From Selaginella tamariscina (lineage: Eukaryota > Streptophyta > Lycopodiopsida > Selaginellales > Selaginellaceae), in contig PUQB01000165.1 of the NCBI GenBank assembly GCA_003024785.1, positions 400,102-464,101 of the forward strand: 64,000 nt of DNA. Reading direction: 5' to 3'. Made by a program: the position numbers and the translations under genes. Under the pieces are notes generated by a model. It was not told the DNA's origin. It searched no databases and saw only the letters and a program-made list of their open reading frames with translations. Below, in pieces: positions 10,372 through 33,182 of this stretch (its first letter is position 1; the number at the start of each line of letters is the position of its first letter).

Positions 10372-12530
10372 TGCATGTTGTAACTAAAATGGGCATGTCT
10401 ATAGTCCCATTTTATAATAATTAGCAATTTTAGTTATTTAATTAGCATTTTTTATTATTAAAGAAATATTTTTTAGAATATATGTTTGAAGACAAAATAT
10501 TCTTTAGAATATTCTATTTTATAATCAACCCAATAAATTATAGCATTTATGGACCAAAAATTAATAACATTATAAAAGTAGAAGGTATTAAATTATATAA
10601 TATATTATATTTAAGATTGTATGGGCCTAATATAAAAATTAAGGAAGAGCATAAGAGGTACATTATATAAATATTGATGGTTTTATTAAAAATATTAATA
10701 TTTAAATATAACATTAATTAAAAATTTGTAATAGTAATAATATATATATAATATCAAAATCTTATAATAATATAGTTAATCTTCCATATCGTTTTATAAA
10801 TTTATATAGTTAAGTAAACAATTTGGTACTATTATAAAGGTATTATAATTATAAATATTAAATATACGATATTTTAATAATTGTAATTGCTTTAAGCTTT
10901 AGAAAACATACATTCTCTTGCAGTTTTGTTAATCGTGACTTTATCAACTCTTCTTGACATCCACCCATATCAAATGCATTTAACATTTATAAAAACTAAG
11001 CTGGAAAAGGATTACCCAACTTCTCCACCAATGAGAGAGGTGTGAATACCAAATACGATTTGATTAGGTCTGACTGATACAAGGTATTTATACTAAGTGT
11101 ATGTGCTAGGATTAGCACTCTCAGTACCAAGTAAATCATGGTGTTCAAATTAGCTAGCCCCAAATTAGTGTAGAGTACGTAGCGTATATACGTAGTATAT
11201 ACCATGGAACCTTATATCTAAAACATGCTGGGTCTTTTTGATTGGGAGACCATGTTTTCTCTAGGCATCCATTTATTTTTACTCTCCTTTTCATGTCGCC
11301 TTTTTTGTGGTTTGAACCATGCAACCTTAACTATATTATTTTTATGATACTTCAGGTGTGTCGATAATTTGACCCATTCATTATGACACATCTAGAGTAA
11401 TGAGGACCATCATTAGTTTTTGAAGATCTTTGTAGTAATCAAAATATGTTTTAAGTTTTTGGTTCCTTTGTTCAACAAAGTGTGGGGTTTGCACACTACT
11501 GGCTTCTATTTCGTCTGCTTAGTGAGTCATTTCAATCTCCTCTTGTCACCTTGTTTTATGCCAAAAAGGGTGTTGCAATTTTATACTTGTGACAATAGCC
11601 CTTTTAACTTTTGAACCATAGTCTCCCAATAATTTGAGTAACCAATTGCCTTATCAAAATTCTTTAGCAACGATTTTTGAACCCATGCCACATATTTTTT
11701 GATGCCATCAATAATAACCTTTTGTTCCTTGAATTGGGCACTCAATGGAATAGGGTCTAGTTGTTCTTTGGAAGAAGTGGCTTTCATCCTCTCCATTTTT
11801 GAAGAGCATTAAGCCCTCTTTGGTAACCACTCCTACCTAATGGCCGTAACTTATACTACATAATAGATATACCATCTCTTATGGAGAAAAAGAATTAGTG
11901 GCATAAGGTGACCAACTAAAGAATTGCTCCCCTTTTGTATATACTCATTGAGAAACTTTTTGAAGTCTGACACCTTAGTCACAAGCAAAGCACAACTTTT
12001 TTTGGAGATGCAATTTTCAAAAAGATCCATCATATGTAGTAAGGTGTCCTTTTTAGAGTTGGAGATCTTGCTGAAGAAATGAGCTTGAGAAATCCTTGAC
12101 TAAAATGATTTGAGATTTCCTTGACCCTTGCATTTTGAGAAATCCTTAACTAAAATGATTTTGAGATTTGAGATTTTGAGACCTTGAGATTTTCCTTGAC
12201 CCTTGCATTTGTGGTTTGGCATTTGTGAGGCATCCTCTGCATTTGCTTCCACAAAAGCCTTGAGTATTTCTAGGCTGCTATAATGTGAGAGCGGGTTTTG
12301 ACCAGGCGAGTGTTTCATGTACTGAGGTTCGCACTCCATCTAGCCACTCATCCCTCCGACGATAGAACGTGGTCTTGGGATCCTGTTACCAAGCTTTGAA
12401 GCAGATGACCACCTTATTAAATACCATGGATGTACTTTGATAACCTATGTCCAAGGCCATTCTATCAATACACCCAGTTAGTGTAGCATATACAAACTCA
12501 TGCCTTTACTTTTGGTGAGAGTACGAAAGA
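10372..12530 (-). mobile_element. Giant transposon copy 2, left part (3' half of a decayed transposase gene)
   Basis: This is the inverted homologue of 24190-27051. It begins at the terminal motif TGCATGTTGTAACTAAAATG (10372-10391). It then runs through AT-rich DNA and, on minus, through the tail of the DUF7869-type gene (KEQKVIIDGIKKYVAWVQKS at ~11660-11720). It ends with the block matching copy 1 at ~24190-24545. Relative to copy 1, roughly 24545-25500 is missing, and that interval encodes the catalytic-like core motifs. Internal short repeats (TTGAGAAATCCTTGACTAAAATG, partial) occupy 12080-12200. The segment stops at 12530, where copy 1 is inserted. Confidence 0.8.
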
Positions 12531-12556
12531 TGCACGTAACTAAAGTGGGCATGATA
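12531..12556 (+). repeat. left terminal inverted repeat of copy 1
   Basis: TGCACGTAACTAAAGTGGGC followed by ATGATA. It matches the inverted right end at 27026-27051 and the termini of copy 2 at 10372 and ~33675. Four occurrences of the same terminus at the predicted element boundaries support this call. Confidence 0.7.
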
Positions 12557-12833
12557 CGTGAAAATGGGAATATAAAATAAATTACTAATTAATACTTAAG
12601 TTTTAATTATTAATTAATCATTTAATTAATATGTAATTAAGCCTTAAATATTAATTAATTAATTAATTAATCCTTCAATAACCTTACTTAGTAAGGAATA
12701 TTCCTAAAATATCTTAGAATATTCATATTATTCTAAAAATAGTTTACAATAATGAAGAAATACTATCAAACATAATTACAAATGAAATCATTTTCTTATC
12801 AACATGTTAATTTTTTATAAATACTTTCTTCTA

Positions 12834-13974
12834 TCATACAAAGAAATCTTTTATTTTGTCTAAATCATCACTCTCCGGATTAATCAAATCATTTTGGTCA
12901 ATATCTTGATGTTGTTGCCACCACTTAACACTCTCACGAATGCAATTGGGAGTTGCCATCCTTGTTAATACATAAGATGTGATAAGAGAAGGTCTGCATA
13001 AAGGCTCATCTAAAAACTGACGTTCCTTAAGAATAATATTATAAAGCGCCCGGTTGCTATCCTTCATTTTATAAAATTCAATATCACGAGAAAGAAAAGC
13101 TTCAGGAAATGTATGATACGGTGGATACTGCTCACAAAAATTTTCGAGATTCTTCTTTCTGAGGCACGTATCCAAGTAGTTCACTAGCTCATCCATGATA
13201 TCGGTATCAGAATATGGATCGAAAGTGATTGGATGAATACAAGCAATGTTTTGGTTGAGCATAGCCTTCTGAGGAGAGTCGTCTACTACTAAGATGTGCA
13301 TTCTTCATTATCCTTAAGCGACTGATCTCCCCATGAGTCCCAATTATTCTTTCATTCTTGAAGAAGTATGGCTTGCTTTCCTTTCTTATATTGTGAAATT
13401 CGAGAGGTTTATAACATATTCGCTGGTCAAAAATCCAATCTTTACGAATCACCTCTTCTGCAACACTACAATGTTTCTTAAGTAAATTCAACAGCGGTGT
13501 TAAGTTATGAATCTGCATGCATGACCAAATCCCCACAAGCGCACCCATCTCCTTAAGCTTTTGAAAGAGACGATCCAACCCTGGACGAAAAATAATATCA
13601 TATCGAAATTTACCATGACAAGGAATGAAATCTCCTTGTTTGATTTCTTTTTTCTATCCTGGGCCTTTGTCGATGAAGCAGAACACCATTGACATCCAAC
13701 AACACAATATGGCCATGAGTAACATGAGATAGCGTTGCCTCTTGAATACTTTGCAAATCACTTGTTTGCTCCCTTTCACATTTATCCGTTGCCACTATCT
13801 CGTTGCCTATCCCTTCATCATTTAATTGTACATCATCCTTACAAGATTCAGATATTGCATGCGCTGAAGAAATTGATTTCGGAATGAAGCCAATAAAAAT
13901 GATGATGAAGTGGCCCCCATGGTAACGATGTTTTGAGCTGCATTATTATCCATTTCCTGCATGAACTCTGTCAT
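12834..13974 (-). CDS. FCP1/NIF-like HAD phosphatase-domain protein, transposon-borne, frameshifted
   Basis: Read on minus from an ATG at 13974 (MTEFMQEMDNNAAQ). The FCP1-homology domain begins with HIVLLDVNGVLL (~13700), the HAD motif I position. The acid/base Asp is replaced by Asn here, as I recall for a plant-specific LDxNGLL subgroup. The domain continues with FRPGLDRLFQKLKEMGALVGIWS (split: ~13590-13510), IFDQRICYKPLEF (~13400-13440) and the C-terminal motif HILVVDDSPQKA (~13300-13265). Frame changes occur near 13850, 13650 and 13300. The stop is at 12834-12836, about 300 bases inside the left terminus. Members of this fold usually dephosphorylate phosphoserine/threonine; activity here is doubtful given the frameshifts. 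The 3' end is duplicated at 33183-33260 in copy 2. Confidence 0.7.
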
Positions 13975-14237
13975 TCTGACATGTGGCACAAGAAATTGTC
14001 GCCAAACCCCTCTCTTACCTCATGCAATGCTGAAAATCCATGTTCTCAATTATTTCATTACATCTGCAAAATGATAATTAGCTGACCTTAAAATTATCAA
14101 GGTATATTATTTACCTTGTTAATGTGTGACCCATGTTTGAACTAAAAGCTTCATTAATCCTTGAGAATTTATTTTCTGTACAAATATAAAAGAAATATAC
14201 AAAAATGCCTTATGTTACACTCATTTACAACTATTCA

Positions 14238-17200
14238 TCACTCTAAATTCATTATCAATTCTTCTTCGCTATTACCTTCTGAGTGAGGCGAAGAAGGTCT
14301 AAGCCGCTTGTGAGATGGTTCAAGATCTTCTGCATCTTCTATTGATGTTTCCATGGGTCCTGGAGTGTGCGAATGTTCTGTACTCCTCGAGATAACTTCC
14401 GGTCTAATATCTGATTGAAGTTCGTTCTCAGACTCCGAGATTGAACCAGATTCACCTTCAGAGCTATCGCACTTATCTGGAGGGAACTTTCTCAAATACG
14501 CCTTTATGGATTCGTTGGGGTACTCAGTTGAGACCCAATCTATCCACTTGTTCAGGTCCTCAACCATGGTCTTATCCTTTTCAACGGCAAACACACATGT
14601 ATGCCGAAGGTAACACTCCTTCAAGACGGACCCCCTAGTGCAGTAGTCAAAAACCCACGCATCACTGTGAGGACCCCTGATCAAGTTGACGATGCTCCGT
14701 GCCGCTTGACTTGTAATGTTTGGATAACGTACATTGCCGAATACGTCACTCATACCTATCGGTGTATCGGATGGAGGTTCAGGGCCGTTGGAGTGCAAAC
14801 AGATGCCTGGCCAGTCATTTGGAAGCTTGAAATTGTTTGGCGCATTCCTAACAACCAAGTGAACAACGTATCAATGCACTTGGGATTAGCATCGTTCATA
14901 TAAAATCCTGTCCAACGATGTCTATTCTTCTTGGCGAAGGCGAAGGCAAAAGTATCGGTGACATGAGCAAGAATCAAGAAATAAATACCTGAAAAAGTAG
15001 GTATCAGTGAAGAGCGCAAGCATGAATTCAATAATAAATACCTTCTATGTATATGCTTGCACGGCTAAGTTTCTCCACCAGATCCTCTAGTGCCCTATCT
15101 GTCGAAAGATTTTTTGACACCCGCCGATCCATCACGAACAATTGAAACGGTTTCCTACAAGCAGTGATGTTACCCCATAAAGTCTCCGAATCTAACAACA
15201 AACATCTGTAGGGCTTGTCGTGATTCGTAGCATCCTCCTTTATAAGGTTCAATTCGGTTCTCCGCTGCTGAAGGACTGCCATAAGAGAAGGCGTCATCCC
15301 AATGTTCTCCTTTTTGGCGTTGGCGTGCAATAGATTCTTGCCTAGATCTTCCGATTGGTTCACCCATTCGACAAGCATATCATCGTTCGTCACATGCAAA
15401 TATTTGCTGACCTCTTCATATGTTGAAGTCGAGGTCCAACCCAGTTTGTGGCAGTGTATTCCCAACCACTCCTTGAAATGCCTGACCGTCTTCAACTCCA
15501 TTGCCTTGAGATGAAAAGGAGAGGTTGGGCTGCTGTTATTAATTTGTAGTTTGCCATCGATCACCAAATCAGCCAAGACTTCCATCTCCTCCATCGTTGT
15601 TCCATTTAAAGGCTTCAACCATGTGAGCTTGAAATCGTTGTCTACATCCTTTGTAGATTGAACAGACTTAGCCTTCGGCGTCTTACTGGGTTTCTTTGCA
15701 GACTTTTCTGAGGGCTCCCCTTCACTTGTCTGCTTCTTCTTCAGTGTTCCTTTTGAAAAGGATTCCATAATCCCCAACCATTTGGCAAAGATCCTATCTT
15801 CGGGGCAAGAAATCAACATCATCAGAAAGGATGTTTCCTTCCCGCCCACCTGGGCAAAATCAACTGCTGCAATTTCTTCAACTCTCTGAGGAAAAAGACA
15901 GATTAATATACCGGCGAGATAAATCCCGCCCAAACAATTTGCTTACCCGGTATTCCGCAGATTGTGTATTCCCTGCGGTAGCTCTTTGTGGTCGCTGAAG
16001 AGATTCCCACACGGCTCGCGTGTGTTTAAACTTCTCCCATATTTTGCTGTTGTAGTGGTTGGTGTCGGCAGCGTCCCATTCCGCCGATAACTTATGGTAC
16101 TGCTCGATTGTGAGATTCGGCTTAGCTAAAAACGCCGATCTTTTTGTCAGCTTCTCACGGGTATGCTCGGAAAGTTTTGTTGCCATCGTTCCTTTGTTGT
16201 GTTCATCGAGAAGTCGTTGGGCTGCCGTTATTGTGTGCTGGCCACTAATGATGTAGTACTTGATAGATTTTTATTCTCCGTCTGAATCTTCATGAGTTGT
16301 TCTGGTGTTGTGATCCAGACTTTGTCAGCGCCTTCCTTCTTTCATAGTATGGACACAAAACAGCATTATGTGGAACGGTATAAGAATTGTCGTCCTTCAT
16401 CTTCTCCATGAGCTCAGCTACACGTTCCTGGTTGAGTGGCCTGTAATTGAAGTTTGGGTTGACGCTGCAATATTTAACCCTACAAGGATAAATCTTATCA
16501 TCCAACATCATTTCCTTGTGACTTATTGCAGCATGAGATGCCACAGGTGCAGCTGACAAAACGATTGATGATTTTCTTTTGCGATCCGAATCAACATGTG
16601 TGATCCCCGACTGCAGCTGTTCTAGTGTTCTCGGCACACTCTTCCAGCTCCCGAAGCTTCCTAAGCAAATTGAACGTGATCTGTAGAGAACCTGAGACCG
16701 AGCCACCCTCTCAATCTCCCTTATGATGTCGCTGTGTTCTTCTTCAATGTGAAGAGGGAAGATTGCTCCACTTGCTGATTTTCTGTATTGTGAAGCAATA
16801 TCTCCTGACAATACACCTACTCGATGAGTCTGAAGATCTTCGAAGTAGACATCCAGATGGATCCCCTCCATAGATGGGCTTTCGTTGAGTTGAAGAAGAA
16901 CTCCAAGGTCAACATCATTAGTGAACACGTGAACGTCATTATCCACAAGTCGACAAAACCACCCGAAATTAATGTTGTAACTGACGACCTCTGGATCCGA
17001 GAACGTGACATTGGATGGAACAAGGCATATCTGTCGAATCAGTCCAATCTGGGTTCGCAGCCTGCTTTCGGGTGCTTGACTAGCGAATCTACTTTCCATT
17101 GTTTTGCTTGTCCATGAGATGTGACAGAGGTTAATTTGACAGCACCATGGTTGCTCCAATGCGCTTCCCATTTATCTTAAAATATGGCCAAGTTGATTCC

Positions 17201-17532
17201 AGAATCCCCCTGCCCATCTCTTCTCCTGCTCTTGTCTTTAATGTCACCTCAATTCCACATCTGAATACAAAAATGATTAGTTCAAGTATCCGAGTATAAC
17301 AGATTTTATTTTAATTCTTACCCAGAATTTGACGACGACTCCATACTAATGACTCGATCTCCTTGTTTGATCAAATCGTCCTTCTGCAAAATAATACACT
17401 ATGAATAAAATCATATAAAAACGCACACACACTTGTATAAACCCGAATATACAAAAATAATACACAGAGAGAAGTAGACGTAATTAACTGTCCGAAGCTC
17501 ACATTTGTGTTAGTGCAAAAGAAAGATAACAT
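14238..17532 (-). CDS. ParB-like nuclease-fold + DNA-methyltransferase-like fusion protein, transposon-borne, frameshifted
   Basis: Spliced model on minus: possible first exon 17503-17532, then 17322-17383, 15947-17260, 15042-15885 and 14238-14988. Intervening introns are 61, 61 and 53 nt, all GT-AG. The N-terminal region contains KQGDRVISME and a ~250-residue unrecognised part. A ParB-like domain follows: NFNYRPLNQERVAELMEKMK (~16460-16395) and YYIISGQHTITAAQRLL (~16250-16200), matching the ParB RPL-like start and the GxHR-type motif. The middle is Lys-rich (~15770-15650). The C-terminal region has LLLDSETLWGN (~15205-15170), where the DPPW/Y motif would be expected, and SDAWVFDYCTRGSVLKECYL (~14665-14605), resembling the SAM-binding D-x-F-x-G-S/T-G motif of DNA methylases. 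It ends in an acidic Ser/Glu-rich tail. Frameshifts lie near 17160, 16310, 16260 and 14860. The fusion call is by motif only, and the missing DPPY motif leaves activity uncertain. Confidence 0.6.
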
Positions 17533-17575
17533 TTCGTTTTAGAACCACCACAAATGTGAGCTCTGGACAGTTTTA
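17487..17575. repeat. short inverted repeat at the 5' end of the ParB/methyltransferase gene
   Basis: AACTGTCCGAAGCTCACATT (starting ~17488) is repeated as its near-perfect reverse complement, AATGTGAGCTCTGGACAGTT (ending ~17573), with a loop of roughly 35-40 bases. The hairpin straddles the presumed first exon of the minus-strand gene. It could be an upstream regulatory hairpin or the end of an older insertion. Confidence 0.5.
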
Positions 17576-17669
17576 CATAGATTCCTAGCTTTTACTCGAA
17601 ATATTATGATAAGATGATAAAAGTAAATAAAATGAGATATGCAACTTATATATACTAATACACATATAT

Positions 17670-19110
17670 ATTCACATGGAAGGTGCGGCGGGATTAATCT
17701 CGCCACCCCTTCAATGCCTCCTGAAAGAGTGGGCGGGATTAATCTCGCCACCTTTCTGGAGGCCTTGAACGGGAGTGCGGAATTAATCTTGCCACCCTTC
17801 TCGGTCTCAGAGAGAACTGGGCAGGATTTATTTCTCACACCCCTTCAGTGACTCCAGAAAGGAGGCGGGATTAATCTCGCCCACCATGTAAGGATGGTTA
17901 AATGAATTTCCCCACCCTTCCCAATTCTCTCCATTGGTATGTTGAAAACCTTCTACGTCTCAGACAGAAACGTTTGGGATTGGTCCGACTCACCAATGGA
18001 GAAAAAGGAAGGGTGGCGGGATTCATTCCTCCAACAGGCATTGAAGACTCGGCGGGATTAATCCCGCCGCCCAGGGCCTTCACTCGGTCCCTATGCGGCG
18101 GGATTAATCCCGCCGGACGCCAATTCCCTGCGCGGAATCGGGCGGGATTAATCCCGCCGCCTAGGCACTTCAGGCAGGCCAATGGCGGCGGGATAAATCC
18201 CGCCCGATTCCGCGCAGGGCATGCGTCCGGCGGATTAATCCGCCTCCCAGGCCCTTCACTCGGGCCTTAGTCGGCGGGATTAATCCCGCCGAACGCCAAT
18301 GCCCTGTGCGAAATCTTGCGGGATTAATCCCGCCGCCTAGGCCCTTCAGGCAGGCCAATGGCGGCGGGATAAATCCCGCCCGATTCCGCGCAGGGCATGC
18401 GTACGCGGCGGGATTAATCCCGCCCACCATGTAAGGGATGGTGAAATTAATCCCACCACCCTTCTCAGTTCCCTCCATTGGTATTTTGTAAACCTTCTCC
18501 GTCTCAGACAGAGTTAGTCGGGATTGATTCAACATACCAATGGAGGAAAAAAGGGTGGCGGGATTAATCCGCCACCGGGCAATGAAGGTTCGGAGAGACT
18601 AATCCCGCCGCCCTCTCGTAAATCATGCGCTCACACATATATATTGGCTGCGGCATTTTGAACAGGGATGGGTGGGGGCGGGATTAATCCCGCCGCTTAT
18701 ATCCTGCGGAAGTGCCTGAGCGGCGGGATTAATCCCGCCGCCTGCGAAGGGCATGAGCGGGCGGATTAATCCCGCCGTTCATGTCCTGCGTGAATTCCCT
18801 GGGCGGCGGGATTAATCCCGCCGCCTTACGCAGGACATGTCATGCAGGCTCTTCGGTTAGCCTTCCGTGCAGGATCTTTCATGCAGGCTCTTCGGTTAGC
18901 CTCATGAGCGGCGGGATTAATCCCGCCGCCCATCCCCTGTAAATGCCCTGCGCGGAATCCGGCGGGATTAATCCCGCCCATTAGGGCCTTCACACAGGCC
19001 ATTGCCGGCGAGATAAATCCCGCCGCATTCCGCGCAGGGCATGGGTGAGTGGCGGGATTAATCCGCCGCCATGGCCCCAACCATATAGCGGCGGGATTAA
19101 TCCCGCCGCT
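17670..19110. repeat. Palindrome array 1: about 26 copies of GGCGGGATTAATCCCGCC
   Basis: The 18-bp perfect palindrome GGCGGGATTAATCCCGCC and one- to three-base variants recur about 26 times, for example near 18050, 18095, 18140, 18272, 18405, 18721, 18802, 18909, 18959 and 19089. Centre-to-centre spacing is mostly 40-50 bp. Spacers carry a second repeated vocabulary (GCGCAGGGCATG, GGCCTTCACTCGG, CTTCAGGCAGGCCAATGGCG), often itself in inverted orientation. The GC-rich block stands out sharply from AT-rich surroundings. Open frames rich in GGINPA or AGLIPP are read-through of the repeat and are not genes. Confidence 0.9.
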
Positions 19111-19119
19111 CGAGGGCTT

Positions 19120-19190
19120 AGCGTGTGTGCGAGAGAAAAATTAATAAATAAAAAATTATACAGATAAAAACACACACATATATATGTGTG

Positions 19191-19273
<83 letters not shown>

Positions 19274-19642
19274 GTATATATGTATAGGAGTGTACGTGTG
19301 TGTGCAAGAGATAGATAAATAAATAAAATTATACAGTACTGGTACACATAATATATGTGTGTACATAGGTATATATATGTGTGTATATGTATATCGTGTG
19401 TATGCGTGTGAGCGAAACAAATAAAATCATACAGATAAACAAACACACACACACACATATATATACACAGGACTGCGTATGTGTGCGAAAAATAAAACTA
19501 ATAAATAAATAAAATTATACAGATAAACACACACATATATATGTGTGTATATAGATATATAACCCATAGAGAAAGAGAGAGAGTCTGTGAATATATAAGC
19601 ATATATAAACTAGTATTGTATACTATTTGTTAATATGCATTG

Positions 19643-19673
<31 letters not shown>

Positions 19674-20031
19674 AAAGCAGTGTGCGTGTGTGTGGGAGAG
19701 ATAGATCAATAAAAAAAATTATATAGATACTGGTACACATAATATATGTATGTATTATGTATATGTATATAGGTATATATATATGTGTATATGTATATTG
19801 TGTGTATGCGTGTTTGAGCGAAACAAATAAAATCATACAGATAAACAAACACACACACACATATATATACACAGGAGTGTGCGTGTGTGTGCGAGAGATA
19901 AAACTAATAAATAAATAAAATTATACAGATAAACACACACATATATATATGTGTGTATATAGATATATAACCCATATGAATATATAAGCATATATATAAA
20001 CTAGTGTTGTATACTATTTGTTAATATGCAT

Positions 20032-20080
<49 letters not shown>

Positions 20081-20160
20081 AAGCAGTGTGCGTGTGTGTG
20101 GGAGAGATAGATCGATAAAATTTTTTTATAGATACTGGTACACATTAAAATTATACGCAC
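19120..20160. repeat. tandem ~400-bp microsatellite-rich repeat
   Basis: Blocks such as TGTAAAGCAGTGTGCGTGTG (19671 and 20076), GAGCGAAACAAATAAAATCA (~19410 and ~19815) and GAGATAAAACTAATAAATAA recur at about 402-405 bp offsets, giving two to three diverged units. Each unit contains a long (TA)n tract (19198-19262, 19645-19671, 20035-20076) and CA/TG runs. No coding sequence. Confidence 0.75.
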
Positions 20161-20399
20161 ACTCCTATACATACATATATACATACATACACACCACACA
20201 CACAGATCTCACCTGTGTGCACAGCCTCCGCCACCGATTTCACAGCCGCCGCCTCTTGAAACCTAAGAATATACCTAAACCCTAATGAATAATTATATAT
20301 ATTAACCCTAATAGAATATTCCTTATGAGAATATACTTAACCCTAAAAAGAATAAAATATAGATTCGCCCTAAACGAATATTCTTTCATTATATTTATT

Positions 20400-21240
20400 A
20401 GCGCGTGCGTGTGCGTGGGTGTATCACATACACCCCAAAAATATAAATCATGCAGGGATTTAACATGTGTGTGTTCATGAGAGTGTTAAAGTTTCATGTG
20501 TATCAATACATATATACACATTGCATATATTAATACACATAATATATACATACACACGTGTATACACACAGACATACATACATATTACATGGGTTTAGGG
20601 TTTAGGGTTTTGGATTTAGGATGGATCATGCATGGTGTGTATGTATGAGAGAAGAGAGAGTGTTGAAAATTATTTTTGTACACATTGCATATATTAGTAC
20701 ACATTTATACTTACACATATTATACACAGATATACATACATAGTATATGAGAAGAGAGACAGTACATATTATGGATCATGCATGGTGTGTATTATACACA
20801 CAGACATACATACATATTATTACATAATATTAGAGAGACCGAGTACATATTACATGGTGTGTATGTTTGAGAGAAGACAGAAAGTACACATATATACATA
20901 CAGAGTACACATATATACATACACACGTGTATACACACAGACATACATACATATTACATGAGTAAATTCATTGTGTTACATATTAGGGTTTAGGGTTTAG
21001 GGTTTAGGATGGATCATGCATGGTGTGAAGAGAGAGTGTTGAAAAATTATTTTGTACACACATGTATACACAGGGTTTAGGGTTTAGGTTTAGGGTTTGC
21101 TCCCAACAAGCTTAATATAAATATTACACATGTAAATTCAATGTGTTACATACACACAGATTGAGTACATATATCATACATGCGTTGAACATGATGTTTT
21201 CAATAAAGAAGCAACATATTTCTTCAGTTTGGTTTAGGGT
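20400..21240. repeat. interstitial plant telomere repeats with a repeated spacer
   Basis: Short runs of the plant telomere unit TTTAGGG occur at ~20586-20612, ~20985-21008 and ~21069-21098. Between them a spacer phrase (GGATCATGCATGGTGTGTATG, followed by AGAGAAGAGAGAGTGTTGAAA) is repeated near 20620, 20765, 20850 and 21010. The segment sits inside copy 1. It may be captured subtelomeric DNA or a structural part of the transposon. Confidence 0.7.
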
Positions 21241-22670
21241 TGTGCATGTGTGTGCATATGTTTTTGTAAGTTCTTGTAATGCGTGTGTAAATTTATGATT
21301 GTGTTTATATATGTGTGCAAAACAAACATCGAATAATTAAGAAAATAATATTAATAAACACACTATGAACATATTTTAAATTATACATAATAATATATGA
21401 TTTTATTAATATATAGCCATATATAGTTTTAATAATATATATTAATTTAATATTGATAAAAAGGTTTAACATTGAAATATTCTTGAAATAATAAGAAATT
21501 AATTGAGAAAATCCCATTAATAATATACAAATGTAAATTAAGTACTCAAATAATTAACTAAATTAATTATCATAATCATGTTTAATATTGGAATATCTTG
21601 GAATAATAAGAAAATAATAAAGAATATCCCATTAATATAAAGAAGATTAATTACTCAAGTAATTAAGGAAATGATATTAATATACACACTATGAACATTT
21701 TAAATTATACATAATAATACAATTTTATCTAATATATAGTCATATATAGTTTAATAATATATATTAATTTAATATTGATAATAAGGTTTAACACATGAAT
21801 ATTCTTGAAATAATAACAAATTAATTGAGAAAATCCCATTAATATATACAAATGTAGAATAATTACTGCAATAATTAAGAACAAGACTAATTTAATTATG
21901 ATAATCAGGTTTAATATTAGAATATTCTTTAAATATTAATAAAATAATAAAGAATATCCCATTGATACTAGGAAATGAAAACTAAATACTCGAGTAATTA
22001 AGAAAATAATAATAATAAATAGACTATGAATATATTTTAAATGATACATAATAATATATCAATTTATTTATTGTATAAGTATATATTTATATATATATAT
22101 AATATAAATATACTTGAATACTAAGAATGTAGAATATAATCTAAAATTTCGTAATATTAAACAGCTTGAATCACTTGAATAACATTAAATGCAATTTTAA
22201 AATACTCATTGGAACTGAAGAGTATATATGTCAGAGTGTCGAATATTTGTGTCAACTCATCTTAAATTTTATTTTCTGTTCTTTTTAAAAAATTTGAATT
22301 TTTGACATATGTATTGTCGGTCTGACATGTAAATTTAAAAATGCATTTAATTTCCCACTCAAATTCAGATCTGGTTCTTTCTCCGGCAAGGGTTTCTTCA
22401 TTTCTGTATTTTCACTCTTTAGATCTTCTTTTTTCTTCATAGTGATCATCTTAGGAGCGAGATTAAATTGGGTGCTATTCTTTATAGGAAAGCACGGCGC
22501 CTTCAGTGCTGTTTACAAGTATTATAAACAAATTTAAAAATACTTATAAAGATTCACTCTCTTACATTCTCTCTTAAAATTACAATTTAGGGGTTTAGAA
22601 ATGCATTAGGATTATAATATTCCGTTAGGGATTTATCTCGTTTAAATATCCTTTTAACTTAATATTCTAG
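21240..22670. other. AT-rich non-coding arm of copy 1, duplicated in copy 2
   Basis: No gene seen. The stretch has three diverged internal repeats (AATAATTAAGAAAATAATATTAATA and AATCCCATTAATA units at ~21340, ~21670 and ~21990). It reappears in inverted orientation at about 28090-29075, with many substitutions, and supplies much of the evidence for copy 2. Confidence 0.7.
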
Positions 22671-22674
22671 GTTA

Positions 22675-23282
22675 ACCGGGGCGCGGGATTAATCCGGCCA
22701 TTTCTTTTTCGCCTCTTCGAAGAGGTGGCGGGATTAATCCCGCCACCATCTCTCGGGCAATGCTTCTCCGCCACTGAAAAAGAGTGGCGGGATTAATCCC
22801 GCCGATAACCTTCTCAACTGATGAAGAGTTACCAGAATTTATTAGAAAGAGTTGTCGGCGGGATTAATCCCGCCAACCATTTTAGGAGGCAGGGAAGGGG
22901 TGGCGGGATTAATCTCGCCACCACATCCCTGTTTTAAGGATTTGGAGACATGATTTATCCCGAGATCTCTTTGAAATCATAGTTTTGGAGAGAGTTATGT
23001 GCAGGTTTAATCCCGCCACCCATTCCCCGTCATAAGAATTGTGGCGGGATTAATCCCGCCATCTCTCTCCGACGAGGAAGAGAGTCGGCGGGATTAATCC
23101 CGCCGGACTCCCCCGAGGAGGAAGAGCGGCGGATTAATCCCGTCGGCTCTTCCTTGTCGGAGGGAGTCCAAGGCGGGATTAATCCCGCCGACTCTCTCCG
23201 AAGGGGTTGAGTCGGCAGCGGGATTAATCCCGCCGACCATTCCTCGTCGGAGGGATTCGTGAGCGGGATTAATCCCACCCAT
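22675..23282. repeat. Palindrome array 2: about 12 copies of GGCGGGATTAATCCCGCC
   Basis: Perfect or near-perfect copies lie near 22726, 22783, 22857, 22903, 23041, 23087, 23127, 23173, 23217 and 23262. The last six are spaced 42-46 bp. Spacers such as CTCTCCGACGAGGAAGAGTC are dyad-symmetric, so each unit has two centres of symmetry. The array ends about 150 bases before the transposase gene start, so it occupies that gene's upstream region. Confidence 0.9.
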
Positions 23283-23433
23283 CAGTTGTATTAATCAAAC
23301 ATGAGATATTATCTCTAAACATAATTATGTATTATTGCATATGCATATTATTAAGTAACCGTAATTCAGATTTCTTAGAAATATTGCATAAACAGATATC
23401 ATAAATAATACAATTATTTATGTGCAGGACAAT

Positions 23434-26400
23434 ATGTTTAATACTGGAGATAAAGTATGTCTTCTTCGGAACAACGAGATAGTTGGCACTAGAACTGTGG
23501 AAGTTCGAGATAATAATGCATCATGTCACAATATTGCCCAAGGATCTTGTGTGTACGTATGGGTGAACACCATTTACAAGCATGTTGAGGTTCTGGGAAT
23601 GGAATTTGAGGAGGGTTCTCCTGTATTGTGGAATTTGGATGAAGTCAAGGTGACACAGAATATGCAGAGTCACAAACAAATAGTAGCACGAGTTTACCAA
23701 ATGATGGCTTGCCTGCTGTGATGGATGAGGTGATTCTCTTTCTTCGTGAGATTGAAGTCGGAAGAGGCATCATCACAGCTATAAATCCAATGGAAGCAGT
23801 GTCAGAAGAGAAACTAGGGTCCGACTTCGTGGGTGTAGTTGTGACAGAGGTTTCACCTAATGGCAAATTGTATCCTGGATCCCTCGTGAGGTGGCGAACA
23901 TCTGAATTAAGACGGCAAGATGGTTCAACATATTCTGGGTTGGATTTCAATAATAACAACCCGGAAGAACAACTCATATTTGAAGAGGTTCCTTGCATTG
24001 GTCCTATTGTAAGAAAAAGGCGATTCATGGGTTGTAGATCTTCCCCTGCAAGTTTCAGCAAAAGGGTAAAGATGGATCTTACATCTTCCGAAAGTGTTAC
24101 GAGCATTTCCACGATTGACTGTTGCAAGAAGAAGTGTTGTCAAATGGCAGACCGGAATGAAATTACCCAATGTAGACATGTCTTTCGTATGCTCACCCAA
24201 AAGCAAAGGCATGAGTTTGTATATGCTGCACTAACTGGGTGTATTGATGGAATGGCCTCGGACACAGGTTATCAGAGTACATCCATGGTATTTAATAAGG
24301 TGGCCATCTGCTTCAAAGCTTGGTACAGTATATACGGGATCCCAAAGACCACGTTCTACCGTCGGAGGGATGAGTGGCTAGATGGAGCGCGAACCTCAGT
24401 TCATGGGAACACTCGCTTGGTCAAAACCCGCTCTCACATCATGGCAGCCATAGAGATACTCAAGGCTTTTGTGGAAGCAAATGCAGACAGGATGCCTCAC
24501 AAATGCCGAACCACAAATGCAGGGGTCAGGGAAAATCTCAAGGTTTTGCCTTCAATCTACACTCAATTGAAGCTGTGTGAACATGTGAACAAGTGCCTCA
24601 GTTTGATGGGGCTCCAAGCAATCTGCACTGGTACCTTAACAACATATGGAATACTCATTTTAAGGATGTGGAGATTGCAAAACACTCTAGCTTTTCCAAG
24701 TGTGACACTTGTACATCATTGAAGGCTGCAGAGGCTTGTGCAAAAACCTTGGTGGAGATCACTACCATTCAAAAGAAGATGGAGGCCCACATGATTGCAC
24801 AACAAACTTGCCGGTCTCAGTACTATGCACACCGCATGCTTTCTGTGTCACGCCCATCAGAGTACCTGTGCTTGATCCATGACAAGATGGATCATTCAAA
24901 GACCAGCATTCCAAAGCTCTTTGCAACACCAAAGTGCCTTGGAAATGTCATGAAACTTCCGATTTCATTGACAGGTGTGCTAACACATGGACACGGTTGT
25001 GAGTCATATGGACACTTTTCACTTCCACATTGGTCTAGCGACTCCAATTTCACTATTGGGTCGTTGGCCATGTGTTTCAGAAACCTTGAAGCCCACTCAC
25101 AGACAAGTCCTATCAGTGATCTTAAAGTGAAGAAACAACACCTTCAACCTTTACATAATGCTCTCATGAACACGTCTGCACTTGAGGCTACTTGGGAATA
25201 TGAGAGGTATTGTCAACAGCCTGCACAGAAAACGATGGCCCTGTTGAGAGTTCTGGTTCAGTGGAGGAATCTAGCTCAAAATAGTGTACATGTGTCCTCA
25301 ACATCAAATAAGCTTCCTCGTCATTTGCTTTTACAGATGGATAATTGTGCAGGCGAGAACAAAAATAGGTAAATCATTTTACTTAAGGGTTTCTCAAGCT
25401 CATACTTACTTTTATTTTCTAGATATGTGCTAGCATACTTGTCAATGCTTGTTGCCAAAGGTGTGTTTGAAACAATCACGCTCAGTTTCCTTATGGTTGG
25501 TCACACTCATGAGATATTGATGCGTTCTTCAGCAAGGTCTCCAACTCTACAAAAGGACAAGTGCACTTACCTTACCGCATATGATGAATCTTTTTTGAAA
25601 ATTGCATCTCCAAAAAAAGTTGTGCTTTGCTTGTGACTGAGGTGCCAGACTTCAAAAAATTTCTCAAGGAGTATATAAAAGAGGGAGTGATTCTTTAGTT
25701 GGTCACCTTGTGCCGCTACAATTCTTTTTCTCCATACGAGATGGTATACCTATTATGCAGTACAAGTTACGGCCATCAGAGCAGGAGTGGTTACCGAAAG
25801 AGGGCTTAATGCTCTTCAAAAGTGGAGAGGATGGAAAGCCACTTCTCCCAGAAGGACAACCAGACCCTATTCCTATTGAGTGCCCAGCTCAAGGAACAAG
25901 AGGTTATTATTGATGGCATCAAAAAATATGTGGCATGGGTTCAAAAATCAATGCCAAAGAATTCTGATAAGGCAACTGGTTACTCAGAACTATATAAGCA
26001 TGTGGTCGATTATTGGGAGACTGTTGTTCGAGAGTTGGAAGGGCCTACTGTCACAAGTACAGAATTGCAACACCCTTTCTGGCCTAAAACAAGGTGGCGA
26101 GAGGAGATTGAAATGACATCACTGAGCATAGACGACATAGAAGCCAGTAGTGATGTGGAAGTGCAAACACCACACTTTGTTAAACAAAGGAACCAAAAAC
26201 CTAAAGCATATTTTGATTATTACCAGGATCTTCAAAAACTAATGATGGTTCTCATTACTCCAGATGCGTCATATAATCAGCCTATTTGGATGGGTCAAAT
26301 TATCGACACACCTGAAGTAATCACAAAAAATAGTATTCTTAAGGTTGCATGGTTCAAACCACAAAAAAGGCGACACGAGAAGGAGAGCGAAAGATATAAT

Positions 26401-26541
26401 GGATGCCTAGAGAAAACATGGTCTCCCAATCAAAAAGACCCAGCATGTTTTATAAATGTTAAATCCATTCGATATAGGTGGATGTCAAGAAGCGTTATAA
26501 AGTCACGATTAACAAAACTGCAAGAGAATGTATGTTTTTGA
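23434..26541 (+). CDS. DUF7869-type transposase-like protein of copy 1, frameshifted
   Basis: Starts at ATG 23434 (MFNTGDKVCLLRNN), just after a possible splice acceptor. The N-terminal ~100 residues resemble the domain found at the start of plant En/Spm-type transposon proteins. A central region is rich in Cys/His and basic residues (CCKKKCC; YGIPKTTFYRRRDEWL). The core carries CLIHDKMDHSKT (~24870-24905), LLLQMDNCAGENKNR (~25328-25370) and FLMVGHTHE (~25490-25515). Conserved acidic residues in these suggest an RNase H-fold (DDE-like) active site, which is inference. One 54-nt GT-AG intron, 25369-25422, splits NKN-RYVLAYLS. The C-terminus (25822-26541) includes IWMGQIIDTPEVI and LKVAWFKP, a BAH/Tudor-like look. 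Frameshifts lie near 23705, 24590, 25515, 25600 and 25820; the one after GHTHE removes the expected DID motif. Probably the element's transposase, now broken as assembled. Confidence 0.75.
25369..25422 (+). other. 54-nt spliceosomal intron in the transposase-like gene
   Basis: GTAAATC at the 5' side and TTTTCTAG at the 3' side. Removal joins the codons for Asn-Lys-Asn-Arg to Tyr-Val-Leu in frame, restoring a continuous conserved motif. The length is like that of several introns in the host transporter gene in this window. Confidence 0.8.
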
Positions 26542-27025
26542 AGCTTAAAGCAATTACAAAATTATAAATATCATATATTTAATATTCATAATTATTATAA
26601 ACTCTTTAATAATAGTACCAAATTGTATACTTAACTATATAAATTTAAAAAATGATATGGAAGATTGACTATATTATTATAGGATTTTATATATATATTA
26701 TTACTACTACAAATTTTTAATTAATAATGTTGTATTTAAATATTAATATTTTTAACAACATCAATATTTATATAATGTACCTCTTATGCTCTTCCTTAAT
26801 TGTTATATTAGGCAATATATTATATAATTTAATACCTTCTACTTTTATAATGTTATTAATTTTTTTCAATGAATGCTATAATTTATTAAAGGGTAGAATA
26901 CAAAATAGAATATTCTAAAGAATATTCTATTTTCAAACATATATTCTAAAGAATATTCCTTTAATATTAGAAAATGCTAATTAAATAGCTAAAATTGTTA
27001 ATTATTAAGGAAATGGGACTATAGC

Positions 27026-27051
27026 CATGCCCATTTTAGTTACAACTTGCA
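27026..27051 (-). repeat. right terminal inverted repeat of copy 1
   Basis: The reverse complement reads TGCAAGTTGTAACTAAAATG followed by GGCATG. It pairs with 12531-12556. The following bases, TATAAGACATGTCTAC, resume the interrupted transposase sequence of copy 2. Confidence 0.7.
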
Positions 27052-29090
27052 TATAAGACATGTCTACATTGGGTAATTTCATTCCGGTCTGCCATCTGAC
27101 AACACTTCTTCTTTATAACAGTCAATCATGGAAATGTTAATAACACTTGTAGAAGATGTAGGATCCATCTTGACCCTCTTGCCAAAACTTGCAGGGGAAG
27201 ATCTAACCCATGAATCACCTTTTTCATACTATAGGACCCAATCTCGCCACCAAACTCCCCTCCGACGGAAAGAGTCGGTAGGATAATCTCGCTGCCACTC
27301 TTTCCGACGAGGAAGAGTCAGTAGGATTAATCCTACCACTGGCTCTTCCTCTTCGGAGAGAGGCGGCAGGATTAATCCCGCCGTCGACTCCCTCCGACGA
27401 GGAAGAGTTAGTGGGATTAATCCTACTATCGACTCTTCCCCTTTGGAGAGAGGCGGCGGGATTAATCCCACCGCTAACTCCCTCTGATGAGGAAGAGGCG
27501 ACGAGATTAATCTCGCCGCAACTCCTCGACGAGGAAGAGGCAGCGGGGTTAATCTCACCATAACCCCTCTGACGAGGAAGAGGCGGCGAGATTAATCTCG
27601 CCGCAACACCTTTTGACAAGGAAGAGTCAGCGGGATTAATCCGCCCACAACTCTCACCGACGGGGAATAGGTGGCGGAATTAATCCCACCCACAACTCCC
27701 TCCAAAGCTATGATTTCAGAGAGATCCAAGGAGGTGTGGATTAATACCGCCAATGCTTTTCTGCATCTTAAATTGAATCGGGATAAATCATGCCCGCAAA
27801 TATCTAAAACTGGAAGTGGTGGCGAGATTAATCCTGCCACCCCTTCTCTGCCTCCTAAAATGGTCGGGGATTAATCCTGTCGACAACTCTTTTTAATAAT
27901 TCTGTTAACTCTTCATCAATTGAGAGAGTTATTGGCGAGATTAATCCCAATGTTTTTTTCAGAGCAGAGAAGCATTACCCAGACGGCTTTTCAAAGAGCT
28001 GGTGGCGGGATTAATCCTACCACCTTTCTAAGAGTGAAAAAAAAATGGCCGGATTAATCCCGCTACCTGGCTAATCGAGAATATTAAGTATAAAGATGTT
28101 TTAAACGGGATAAATCCCTAACGGAGTATAATGTAATCCTAATGCATTCTTAAACCCCTAAATTCTAATTTAAGAGAGAATGTAAGAGAGTGAATCTTTA
28201 TATGTATTTTTAAATTTATTTATAATACTTACTTGTAAACAACACTGAAAGCGCCGTGCTTTTCTATAAACAATAACACCCAATTTAATTCACTCCTGTT
28301 GATCATTATTAAGAAAAGAAGATCTGAAAAGTGAAAAATATAAAAATGAAGAAGAAACCAGATCTGAATTTGAGTGAGAAATTAAATGCATTTTCAAATT
28401 TACATGTCAGACCAGACTTTGTCAGAAATTTAAAATTTTGAAAAGAAAATAAAATAAAATTTAAGATGAATTGACACAAATAACTGACACTCTGACATAT
28501 ATACTTTCCAATTCCAATGAGTTTTATAAAATTGTATTTAATGTGATTCAAGTGATTCAAGCTGTTTAATATTATAAATTTTAGTAATTATTTTACATTC
28601 TTAATATTCCAATATATTATATATATATACTACAATAAATAAATTGATATTATTATGTATCATTTAAAATAATTCATAGTTGTTATTATATTATTTTCTT
28701 AATTACTTGAGTAATATTAAACCTGATTATCATAATTAAATTAGTCTTTATTCTTAATTATTTTAGTAATTATTCTACATTTGTATATTAATGGATTTTC
28801 TCAATTAATTTCTTATTATTTCAAGAATTTTCAATGTTAAACCTTATTAAATTAATATATATTATTAAAACTATATGTGACTATATATTAAATAAAATGA
28901 TAATTATTTATGTATAAATTTAAAATATGTTCATAATGTGTTATTAATATTATTTTCTTAATTATTCGATGTTTCTTTGCACACATATATAAACACAATC
29001 AAAAATTATATATACATGTGCACACGCATTAGAAGCACTTATAAAGACACATATGCACACAATGCACAAGCCGATGAGTGGATCACGATA
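27052..29090 (-). mobile_element. Giant transposon copy 2, right part
   Basis: 27052-27223 is the inverted homologue of 24005-24190 of the copy 1 transposase gene. 27240-28110 matches palindrome array 2 and 28120-29075 matches 21240-22650. About 720 bases (copy 1 positions 23281-24004, the gene start) are missing at the 27223 junction. Homology ends near 29075-29095, where the truncated integrase region of gypsy element A begins. With 10372-12530 on the other side of copy 1, this reconstitutes one interrupted, reverse-oriented element. Confidence 0.8.
27240..28110. repeat. Palindrome array 3: about 17 decayed copies (copy 2)
   Basis: Same palindrome family as array 2 in inverted context, but most copies carry G-to-A or C-to-T changes (for example GGTAGGATTAATCCTACC-like, GGCGAGATTAATCTCGCC and GTGGGATTAATCCTAC versions). 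Spacing stays about 40-48 bp. The central ATTAAT core is better preserved than the GC arms. Confidence 0.85.
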
Positions 29091-29097
29091 TAAATAA

Positions 29098-32000
29098 AGC
29101 ATCTAGCTTTGTTTTACCTATAACCATCTTGTATAGGGTAAGAAATGAGCCTGTTTGGTGAAACAGTTAATCACCACAGAACTGCTCAAATCCATGAGAA
29201 GGAGAAAGATCTGTGAGGAAATCCATAAAAATGAATCTCCAAGGAGCAAAGGGACAGGAAGAAGACAAAGAAGACCAGAGGGCATGTGATGAGGCATCTT
29301 CGCATGTTGCAAGTGTCACAACTCCGTACAAACTTTTCCCAACACCTCGCAACTCAGGCCACCAATAGTTGTGAGTCATCAACTCAAATGTCTTGGTCAC
29401 ACCAAATGTCATGTAGCCAGGGTATCATGACAATCCTGTACCACACGAGTCCTATAAACACCAACAAAAATGTACAGAAGACTTTCCTGATATAGGAGTC
29501 CGTCCTGTATGGCACAATTTGTAATCTATACGAGAACTGGAGGAAGAGGAGATTGCAATGTCAAGACTAATGTGTGAGAACACATTCTTTGCTAAGTCGT
29601 CTGTAGCCAATTGCAAACGGATGCCCTATAGAAGTGTAAATTTGTTGAAGTCTAATGAACTTGTAGTGCCGCAAGCCGAAATCGATTAGGCCCAACAACA
29701 TTTGCTTTGACAGTCATATGTAGGATCGCCTGGGGTCAGTGCAATGTAAGAACACCTAAACAATGCATCCGCTTTGCCATTCCGAAAACTAAGCCTGTAG
29801 ACGATGACAAAATCAAAACGTAATAAGATTCTGCCCACCCAACCTGTTGTCGACTAAGAACTTGAGCCGTTTGAAAAAACTCCATGTTCTTATGATCCAT
29901 AAGAACTTATACAGGATGCGCAACCTTTCATGAAGTGCTGCCACTCCTCAAACGAATCACAATGGCCTTGAGTTCCTTGTCATAAATCTCATAATTGATC
30001 TTCGCCAAAAGGACTTATGAGAGTGAAAGGCTACAGGATGGAGTAACTTGTCTTCTCCAACTTGTGATAAGATAGAACTTTACTATAAGTTCAAGCATCT
30101 GCTTCAATAAAAAAGGAAGCTATCGTGAAGGTGTCCTTAAGTGTTGTGAATGCATGTTCCACCTTGTCGGACCAAAGAAATCCTTTCGCTTGGTGATTCT
30201 GTGAGTGGAAATACGTGCTTGGAGAAGTCCTGTATGAATTGCCTATAGAAATTTGTGAAGCCAAGAAAACATTGTACGTCTCGTATAGACTTAGGCTCTC
30301 CCAATCCATGACAGTCTTCACCTTGTGCAGTCCATTGAGACACGGTAGGAGAAACGATGTAGCCCAAAGAAATTCCACAGTATCCCTATCGAAAAACACT
30401 TCTCCAACTTTGCATACAAGCCATGCTCGTGAAGCTTCTGTAGAACTAGTCGTACATGCTTGTCATGTGCCGCCTGGTCCTTGGAGAAAATCAAGATGTC
30501 ATCGAGGTAGATCACCACAAAGAAGTCACGAAAGATGTTGTTCACCATGTGTTGGAACACGGTTGGGCATTTGTAAGTCGAAAGACATCACCGTGTATTC
30601 AAAGTGTCCATACCTTGTACAAAAGGCAGTCTTCCACTCATCGCCTGGCAAATCCATACAAGATTGTAGGCCCCTCGTAAGTCGATCTTCGTGAACACTT
30701 TTGCTCATTGTAGCCGATCGAGAAGTTCCGGGATTAATGACAAACGGGTATCGATTCCGGATGGTGACTTGATTTAAACCCTTGGTAGTCCACAACCAAA
30801 TGCAAACTCCCATCTTTCTTTTTGACAAAGAAGATAGGTGCTCCTGCAGGGGACTTTGAGTGACGAATGAAGCCGATGCCAAGTTGTCCTCGATGTACTG
30901 GCGAAGAACCTCTAATTCTATAGGTGACAGGGCATAAATCGGTCTGAACGGTAGAGTCTTTCCTTCCGCAAGATTGATAAGATAGTTATAAGACATGTGA
31001 ATAGAAAAACTACAGCCTGTGCTTATCAAAAACGTCCTGAAAAAGTGATACTTGGATGGCAGGGAAAAATGAGAAAGAGAAGGAGACTGAAAAACAAGGA
31101 GTCAGATACATGAGAGGTAGAAAGTTACTTGAAAATCAAAAAAGATGAAAAGAAGCAAGATCAATGGCAAGTTCATGCATAGTAGTGGTAAGAACGCGAA
31201 GAGGAGAAGGAAGGAGCTGTGAATAAAAAGAGGAAGGATCTTGGGGGATGGTACAAAGCAAAGTAATGAAAAGAGACAAGATTAGGAAAACCTATGCTAA
31301 TGTTGACGAGTGTACAGATTGGAAGAATCTGTACAGAAGTCCGTGAATGCATAGGAGTGAGAAGAGCCTGCGATGTGCTAATGAACTGATAAGAGGTGGA
31401 TCCTGTTGAAGAGGAACCTTCGACACTCATACAGGAATAGGCATAGTCCAATTCTATAGCTTGTACTACCTCAGACATTAAGGTCATATCCTACACGCTG
31501 GAAGGTACAAAATTAATCCTGGTTGCCATAGAGAAAAACGTGAGCATTCTAGACCTCCAATTGATCTAAGGATTGCAACCATGAACCATGGCATGCCCAA
31601 ACAATGGAATCGTCCGAGTCTTGATTAAGTTGAAGAAAATTGAACAATTGAATTTGTCATGGGTGTAAAAGAGAGGTGTGATAGCATGGGTAACTGCCGC
31701 AGAAGTAATCAACGACCATCTACGACCTTTATAGGAATTGCACGCTTCAACTTTACCACCGAATGCCATGTTGAGTGAATGTTACAGGAAAATTTAGTGA
31801 TGGAATGGTGTGAGCAGCACCAATGGAGCCCGTGCCTACATCCAACTTCACGGCTCTTAGAAGAAGTGGACATTGAAGTTTCTGACTGAACTTTAGCTTC
31901 TTCTTCACGCATCTTGAACTTCCTTGCCACCTTGTGTTCTGCTTCATCACAATACAAGCATAAGTTCTCACCACGACAAGGTTGCTTCTTAATCACTTGT

Positions 32001-33182
32001 ATTGGTGACCTCCATTGGAACTACTCTAGAAGATGTGTAGAAACATGTGCTACAGCTATATGATTGGCTTGCAGGAACTGCTTGAGATTTTTCCTGACGA
32101 CATTCGAACAAACGGTTGTCACGTGAATGGCATGCTGCATGATCTCTGCTAAGGTTTTGGCATCCGGTAACGTAAGGAAGTCCTTCACGTCATCCCTCAA
32201 TCCAAAACGGAAGTGTTCAATCAATGCAGTCTTGTCCTATGAAATGTTCATGCAATGTTGCTGAAATTCGTGTGCATAGACGGAAACTGGTTGGGATCCT
32301 TGTGTGAGCTTCCTTAACTTTGTGCATGCAAAACGGTATTTATCAGAATTTCCAAAGCAGGCTTTAAAGGCAGTTACGAATCCTTCAAAGTCTTTCTCAA
32401 TGGGTCATCAGGCTCCAGCAAAGGGGCAACCCAGCCCATGGGGATCCAATTAGTAAGAATGCCAAAAGGCCAACCTTTTGTGCATTAGTCCAGTATCGGC
32501 ATGGTTGCATGCAGATTAATGGCTCTGAAGAAGAGTTCGATGGAGAGGGAACCATGGATGCTTGAGAGAGAGCTTGCATAGCAGCCTTGGAAGATGCATC
32601 AGCAGCTGCATGCGTCGCTCTGATGGAACCTTGTAGATCTGTGACCACTTGGCCAGCTCATGAAGTAACATTTGGTGCTCGCGTTGAAATTGCTCAAAAT
32701 TTGCCATGATCTGTGAAAAAAAAAAAAAGGAGAAAAATAAGGGAAGAACCAAGAAAAAAAAGTAACTGAAAATTAAAGAGCTATGAAAGTAGTTATTATT
32801 AAACTGTCAAGCCACGACTCAAGAGCATGATAAGAACAAAAAGGCTTGACTTCAAAGCAAGGCAAAAGCAAGGAATAAAACAAGAACAAAAATGATCGTA
32901 GATGACTAGTGTTAATAATAACTAATTGTATAACAATTAAGTCAGAACTTTTTATTACTCACAACTCCAAAAAGCTAATCTAGGCATAAACTAAAAATAA
33001 TACTCTAGGAGCTAATCCAGGCATGAGCTAAAAATAATTTCCTTATCTTTAGTTATATCCTGTAAGCATATCCTATAGGTATATCCTATTGGTATATCCT
33101 GTAGGTATATCTTATATATACAATATACACGATACGAGATATATGTGTAGGTGTATCCTGTATTCTATATTGGGTTGTGACA
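29098..33182 (-). mobile_element. Ty3/gypsy element A, 3'-truncated
   Basis: Minus strand. The 5' LTR is at 32805-33182, then gag from about 32706 (MANFEQFQREHQ) to ~31850 with a degraded CCHC knuckle (LCLYCDEAEHK, ~31940). A protease remnant follows at ~31700-31800. Reverse transcriptase is at ~31029-30100 ([64 protein letters not shown]). RNase H-like sequence is at ~30090-29700, and the start of integrase at ~29412-29100 (THNYWWPELRG; TKQAHFLP). Many frameshifts and stops are present. The 5' LTR boundary abuts the FCP1-like 3' end of copy 2 at 33183. The integrase C-terminus and 3' LTR are absent, and the break joins copy 2 arm sequence. Confidence 0.85.
32805..33182 (-). repeat. 5' LTR of gypsy element A
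   Basis: On minus it begins TGTCACAACCC and ends GTGGCTTGACA (TG...CA termini). It contains repeated GGATAYACC/TATCCTGTAGG units near its start. It matches the LTRs of element B at 39990-40301 and 45207-45549. Confidence 0.8.

Follow-up and report, generated by a model that had tools for sequence, protein, structure and literature searches.

What kind of element occupies the 14.5-kb unit in a 64-kb stretch of the Selaginella tamariscina genome (contig PUQB01000165.1, positions 400,102 to 464,101; hereafter the window), and what might its accessory genes and repeated palindromes do for it? A first-pass annotation had read the unit as a DNA transposon with inverted termini, a DDE-like DUF7869 enzyme, a ParB/methyltransferase-like gene, an FCP1-like phosphatase gene and two palindrome arrays. 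Positions 12531–27054 of the window hold a DNA transposon that has jumped into another, older copy from its own family, splitting that copy's transposase gene (Table 1). The best explanation, in which we place middling confidence, is that both belong to a giant cut-and-paste family of plant DNA transposons equipped with a VANC-like anti-silencing module.

Repeats were located by comparing the window with itself. The terminus TTGTAACTAAARTGGG, with up to two mismatches allowed, was found at four sites where 0.14 were expected, and none of 100 shuffled sequences reached four. Two of the sites, at 12534 (plus strand, two mismatches) and 27045 (minus strand), bound the inner copy, whose refined limits are 12531–27054, and bear out the inverted termini proposed at first. 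The other two, at 10378 (plus strand) and 33674 (minus strand), bound the outer copy. Terminal inverted repeats, as found in DDE/D cut-and-paste transposons, are present. In the end alignment TGCAWGTTGTAACTAAAATGGGCATG stands at the right end of each copy; the left ends vary.

The sequence to the left of the inner copy (12181–12530) is 90% identical to the reverse complement of 24181–24544, a stretch of the inner transposase gene, and the sequence to its right (27055–27242) is 88% identical to the reverse complement of the adjoining stretch, 23997–24184. Because the two flanks correspond to neighbouring parts of this gene, the inner copy must have inserted into another copy's transposase gene. 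The remnants of one target site suspected at the flanks are thus the two halves of one gene; a 7–9 bp target duplication, looked for at the inner copy, is absent, and the longest exact flanking duplication is the 4-bp AAGA, which the uninterrupted gene also has and which is the best candidate for a target duplication. None was recognised for the outer copy in the end alignment.

Pieces of 10371–12530 and 27055–29069 were found to be reverse repeats of the right part of the inner copy, with an identity between copies of 0.87–0.94 across five aligned non-array blocks and 0.79 across the array. What the two copies share is both types of end, a transposase gene, a palindrome array and the 3′-terminal part of the phosphatase-like gene. 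A lack of other copies, which would have told against the first-pass annotation, is thus not borne out for these parts, but the ParB-like gene is seen in one copy only. Homology to the inner copy ends at 29069, where a dispersed repeat that by eye is a long terminal repeat (LTR) retroelement takes over; an open reading frame (ORF) within this repeat (30526–31101) had no match in Pfam. The inner copy is decayed, with frame disruptions in all three genes, and the outer copy is broken too. We consider the overall anatomy of the nested elements, as described here, to be highly probable. The exact terminus had no match in viral contigs, and Rfam gave no match over 10000–34000 at gathering scores.

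DUF7869 is almost certainly a DDE-type transposase, judging from predicted structures, and the DDE-like enzyme of the first-pass annotation is upheld by both models and structural matches. AlphaFold models of two homologues (P0004 and P0040) show the RNase-H strand order and invariant acidic residues, and among the structural matches listed for one homologue model 49 of 50 are DDE transposase or integrase entries. In the homologues the three acidic residues are predicted to lie on strand 1, on strand 4 and on the last helix of the RNase-H-like fold. The first two acidic sites are present in the window transposase, and the third is cut by a frameshift; the gene has one short intron (about 25373–25423) and several frame disruptions, one of them between GHTHE and DID. 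The homologues number 66, with 23–47% identity for those spanning more than half of the query region. Bryophytes and marine animals have DUF7869 proteins (PF25273) that belong to the same family as the window transposase and have like invariant acidic residues, and the predicted DDE fold was seen in one plant-side protein and one oyster protein. The four animal proteins in the alignment are without the N-terminal repeats of the window transposase. The family is also predicted to have SH3-barrel (Tudor/PWWP-like) and BAH-like modules, so that a widespread domain listed as 'unknown' in Pfam would acquire a concrete identity, a DDE transposase with these modules. In viral contigs 13 pattern matches to DUF7869 included no relatives. 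A literature search by the name DUF7869 found no paper, and neither did one that joined DNA transposon and transposase with BAH domain and Tudor.

The palindrome GGCGGGATTAATCCCGCC (18 bp, up to four mismatches) was found at 50 sites in the window, all inside the two copies and 18 of them perfect; none was found in 10 first-order random sequences. The units often follow one another in steps of about 45 bases, and arrays stand before both divergent genes, accessory and transposase. The three genes and two arrays placed inside the unit at first were all recovered there, and a third array was found in the outer copy. Exact palindrome pairs were not found in viral or prokaryote contigs, nor was a 109-base array piece matched in plasmids.

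The ratio of observed to expected CpG is 0.93–1.07 in the arrays, compared with 0.43 in the transposase gene, 0.77 in the accessory gene, 0.68 in the phosphatase-like gene and 0.65 overall. When the two copies were compared outside the arrays, CpG was lost faster than GpC (25 of 42 versus 28 of 87 discordant, p 0.004). Inside the arrays it was not (29 of 55 versus 25 of 42, p 0.54), and the CpG/GpC odds ratios inside and outside differ (p 0.013). The arrays seem to resist CpG decay, and the pattern weakly fits arrays that stay unmethylated. By analogy with VANC, we tentatively suggest an anti-silencing step carried out by the accessory protein together with the arrays.

The arrays might instead serve a host transcription factor as promoter or enhancer sites, with the accessory protein in another role, an account that we find unlikely but well worth weighing. 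Their position before both divergent genes suits it without any element-encoded binder, and the palindrome halves resemble E2F-like GGCGGGA or homeodomain-like TTAATCC sites. However, 50 near-identical 18-bp palindromes, often at steps of about 45 bp, in our judgement exceed the usual need of a promoter, and one palindrome lies inside the accessory-gene intron.

The FCP1-like HAD gene was confirmed by the Pfam family NIF, which matched ORF 13207–13653 (4.3e-05) and, more strongly, the read-through protein (E 3.7e-12; score 46.6 bits, cut-off 21.8); by sequence, the NIF domain that marks FCP1/NIF HAD phosphatases is present. A PDB sequence search returned 11 sequences up to E 1, with p27 chains and McbD at 0.29–0.58 and small CTD phosphatases at 0.59–0.94. 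The outer copy retains the 3′ end of the phosphatase-like gene, so this gene was once part of both copies. The accessory gene has short introns and, by eye, at least three frame disruptions. It is divergent from and opposite to the transposase gene within the same termini, the position held by the ParB/methyltransferase accessory proteins of giant transposons. Its residues 1–99 match two N-terminal repeats of the transposase (hhalign E 0.0013 and 0.00091, probability 19% and 23%), a result that none of 40 shuffles equalled in either case; with 53 decoy tiles scored per profile, neither these nor the other tiles of the accessory protein came near the score. On this profile evidence the accessory protein begins with the Tudor-like module of the transposase. 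The link was found in no paper, the only search touching it being the combined one for DNA transposon, BAH domain, Tudor and transposase.

The shared module bears on whether the element has merely picked up the accessory and phosphatase-like genes as passengers (Pack-type cargo) that play no part in its life, which we think improbable. Both genes are broken in the inner copy, and the phosphatase-like gene belongs to the NIF family, which also occurs among cellular genes. Against this, the 3′ end of the phosphatase-like gene is in both copies, one module is common to the transposase and the accessory protein, and a ParB/methyltransferase gene stands opposite the transposase in an algal giant transposon, according to the part of PMC12477816 that describes it.

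The remainder of the accessory protein is harder to place. A weak ParB-like reading is based on a box like YYIISGQHTITAAQRLL. The sole PHROG match of this part was a ParB-like family (PHROG 1033, E 0.18), and the best hhalign alignment of the protein with 35 phage ParB-methylases fell on the box (probability 1.3%, P 0.039), where none of 120 shuffles reached its score, the best shuffle being close. The ParB fold named in the first-pass annotation thus keeps some backing from PHROG and the shuffles, while the low probability and the unrelated best matches in Pfam and NCBIfam count against it. Homologues were found neither for the accessory protein at E 0.001 (7999 candidates sharing most words scored) nor for the ParB-like part at E 0.01 (168 candidates), and relatives of the accessory protein were absent from viral contigs (one pattern match, no relatives), phages and plasmids. 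In PDB the ParB-like part matched a single sequence, a chitin-binding protein (E 1.3), and the putative methylase part matched two designed repeat proteins (E 6.7e-07 and 0.007) with no single significant stretch.

The accessory product is distinctly unlikely to be a sequence-specific DNA methyltransferase with which the element would mark its own DNA, the role proposed for the Ectocarpus protein. This function is stated for Sola1-1_Ec32 and its algal relatives in the relevant passage of PMC12477816, and DYCTRGS...VEKD by eye resembles motif I of N4/N6 methylases. However, DRRV stands where the DPPY/W of an N4C/N6A methyltransferase domain is expected (in one decayed copy), and 70 of 120 shuffles reached or exceeded the hhalign score against the phage ParB-methylases. 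Neither Pfam, PHROG nor NCBIfam returned a methyltransferase family match for the accessory protein, and the methyltransferase part of the first-pass description is not supported here. As for a ParB/parS-like system, by which copies would be paired, tethered or segregated, it would account for a ParB-like box and palindrome arrays in one element, ParB proteins being known to bind palindromic parS sites, but is most improbable given weak ParB evidence, no ParA-like partner noticed among the ORFs (no dedicated search was made) and no evident need of partition in a chromosomal transposon.

In the preferred reading, a cut-and-paste transposon with a VANC-like module, the accessory protein would bind the palindromes through its ParB-like part. 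Following the logic of VANC, this binding would keep the two divergent promoters free of silencing methylation and the transposase would be made. The Tudor-like module would bring transposase and accessory protein to the same chromatin, and RNA polymerase II or a host factor may be the target of the phosphatase-like protein. Several findings weigh against this scheme. The ParB-like accessory gene was seen in the inner copy only, the outer copy having the retroelement-like repeat in its place. For the ParB part, a profile search with the same 35 ParB-methylases did not return the accessory protein among the matches listed, which were shuffles, and the best weak matches of the ParB-like piece are not ParB families (NCBIfam PRK05926, 0.013; Pfam DUF658, 0.051). 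The CpG comparison comes from one pair of copies and a repeat alignment, and for 18 of the 29 discordant CpGs in the arrays the other copy has TG, CA or TA. Motif I of FCP1/NIF HAD phosphatases is DxDx(T/V); the phosphatase-like gene has DVNGV in the inner copy, with the second aspartate missing.

Table 1. Positions in the window of the two nested copies and of the features assigned to them
Feature	Position	Strand	Basis
Outer copy, older, same family, in reverse orientation to the inner copy and interrupted by it	10371..33674 (about)		End matches and self-comparison
Outer transposase gene, 3′ part	10897..12530	-	Self-comparison; counterpart of inner 24545-25524 mostly missing
AAGA, left copy of candidate 4-bp target duplication	12527..12530	+	Flanks compared with uninterrupted gene
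Inner copy, complete between its ends	12531..27054		Same ends as the second copy; second copy's split transposase gene on both sides
Left terminus of inner copy, TGCACGTAACTAAAGTGGGCATG...	12531..12560	+	Alignment with the other three ends
Phosphatase-like gene (FCP1/NIF-type HAD), frame disrupted twice	12834..13942	-	ORFs; Pfam NIF
Accessory gene: N-terminal Tudor-like module, ParB-like box, then C-terminal part	14238..17385	-	ORFs; hhalign; PHROG
Single palindrome inside accessory-gene intron	15911..15930		Palindrome search; GT..AG splice sites by eye
Palindrome array A, 25 units, upstream of accessory gene	17685..19107		Palindrome search
Palindrome array B, 12 units, upstream of transposase gene	22680..23281		Palindrome search
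DUF7869 DDE transposase gene	23432..26541	+	ORFs; Pfam DUF7869 2.8e-37 on read-through protein; 66 homologues
Right terminus of inner copy, (ATA)TGCAAGTTGTAACTAAAATGGGCATG...	27020..27054	-	Alignment with right end of outer copy
AAGA, right copy of candidate 4-bp target duplication	27055..27058	+	Flanks compared with uninterrupted gene
Outer transposase gene, continuing toward 5′ side of insertion point	27055..27242	-	Self-comparison
Palindrome array C, 12 units, outer copy	27260..28070		Palindrome search
Dispersed repeat replacing middle of outer copy, accessory gene included	29070..33183 (about)		By eye an LTR retroelement
Remnant of phosphatase-like gene 3′ end, outer copy, about 70 bases	33184..33255	+	Alignment
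Left terminus of outer copy	33645..33674	-	Terminus search and end alignment

Other repeats were seen within and around the two copies. A large stretch rich in AT and TG/CA microsatellites, with internal repeats of 82–84%, lies between the halves of the inner element (19160–20150), and an AT-rich tandem block with units about 84% identical (21240–22111) is also found in the outer copy at 28612–29069. Positions 29142–33082 and 40307–45476 are inverted copies of one dispersed repeat (78–85% identity over aligned pieces, self-comparison). Two direct repeats of about 163 bases each, 86% identical, lie at 37302–37706, and the 175 bases at 63276–63450 match their own reverse complement at 85%, resembling a foldback element or a miniature inverted-repeat transposable element. 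The neighbouring ORFs for a protein kinase (4042–4803) and a LEA_2 protein (5425–6018) point to a plant host, and those for an amino-acid transporter (Aa_trans, 53077–53481) and an Exportin-5 family protein (62642–63028) are probably host genes with introns.

Among known systems, Sola1-1_Ec32 of Ectocarpus is described, in the passages of PMC12477816 that concern it, as a giant transposon with a ParB and DNA-methyltransferase gene opposite its transposase; the same passages report that nested insertions are common in the giant families of Ectocarpus and cite Iyer 2011 and Petroll 2025. Because such a gene opposite the transposase is already in print for an Ectocarpus Sola1, the earlier view that the window element belonged to no described class was too strong. 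The two differ in that Sola1-1_Ec32 is from a brown alga and has a predicted methyltransferase domain, whereas the window element is without such a signal, and section 5 of PMC12477816 makes no mention of palindrome arrays, of a phosphatase gene or of any module in common with the transposase. Sola1 is named in Physcomitrella (in a passage of PMC9033089) and in bivalves (in one of PMC10294476), and DUF7869 proteins occur in Physcomitrium, oyster and mussel. It is a fair guess, drawn from this co-occurrence in moss and bivalves, that DUF7869 is Sola1, and the element is probably Sola1-like. The Sola1 superfamily is said, by an attribution to Bao et al. in 2009, to make 4-bp target duplications, beside which the 4-bp AAGA, seen in one copy only, may be set. 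KDZ transposons of fungi, which carry TET/JBP genes, are likewise DNA transposons with a DNA-modification-type gene, with another transposase family and other chemistry.

VANDAL21 of Arabidopsis is a MULE-type transposon. In layout the window element is like VANDAL21/VANC, which combines an accessory gene with tandem arrays of a short motif, the VANC targets being placed both ahead of the transposase gene and within the introns of VANC itself (passages of PMC5735166). VANC carries DUF1985 and DUF287, and its target motif YAGTATTAY is non-palindromic, unlike the window palindrome (same source). A self-protecting epigenetic system that evolved independently of VANDAL/VANC, in which an element protein with a ParB-like binder and the transposase's Tudor-like module recognises the 18-bp palindrome, amplified into arrays, at both promoters as well as in an intron and shields these sites from methylation, is a speculative and rather doubtful extension of the comparison. 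If true, it would link the algal giant transposons with ParB/methyltransferase genes to plant anti-silencing, the binder having been retained after loss of the methylase. The window element would extend the range of the ParB-type accessory gene from algal giant transposons to a plant, with the palindrome as a candidate binding site. Should the arrays work like VANC targets, transposon anti-silencing would have arisen more than once, and the palindrome and its binder could serve locus-specific demethylation.
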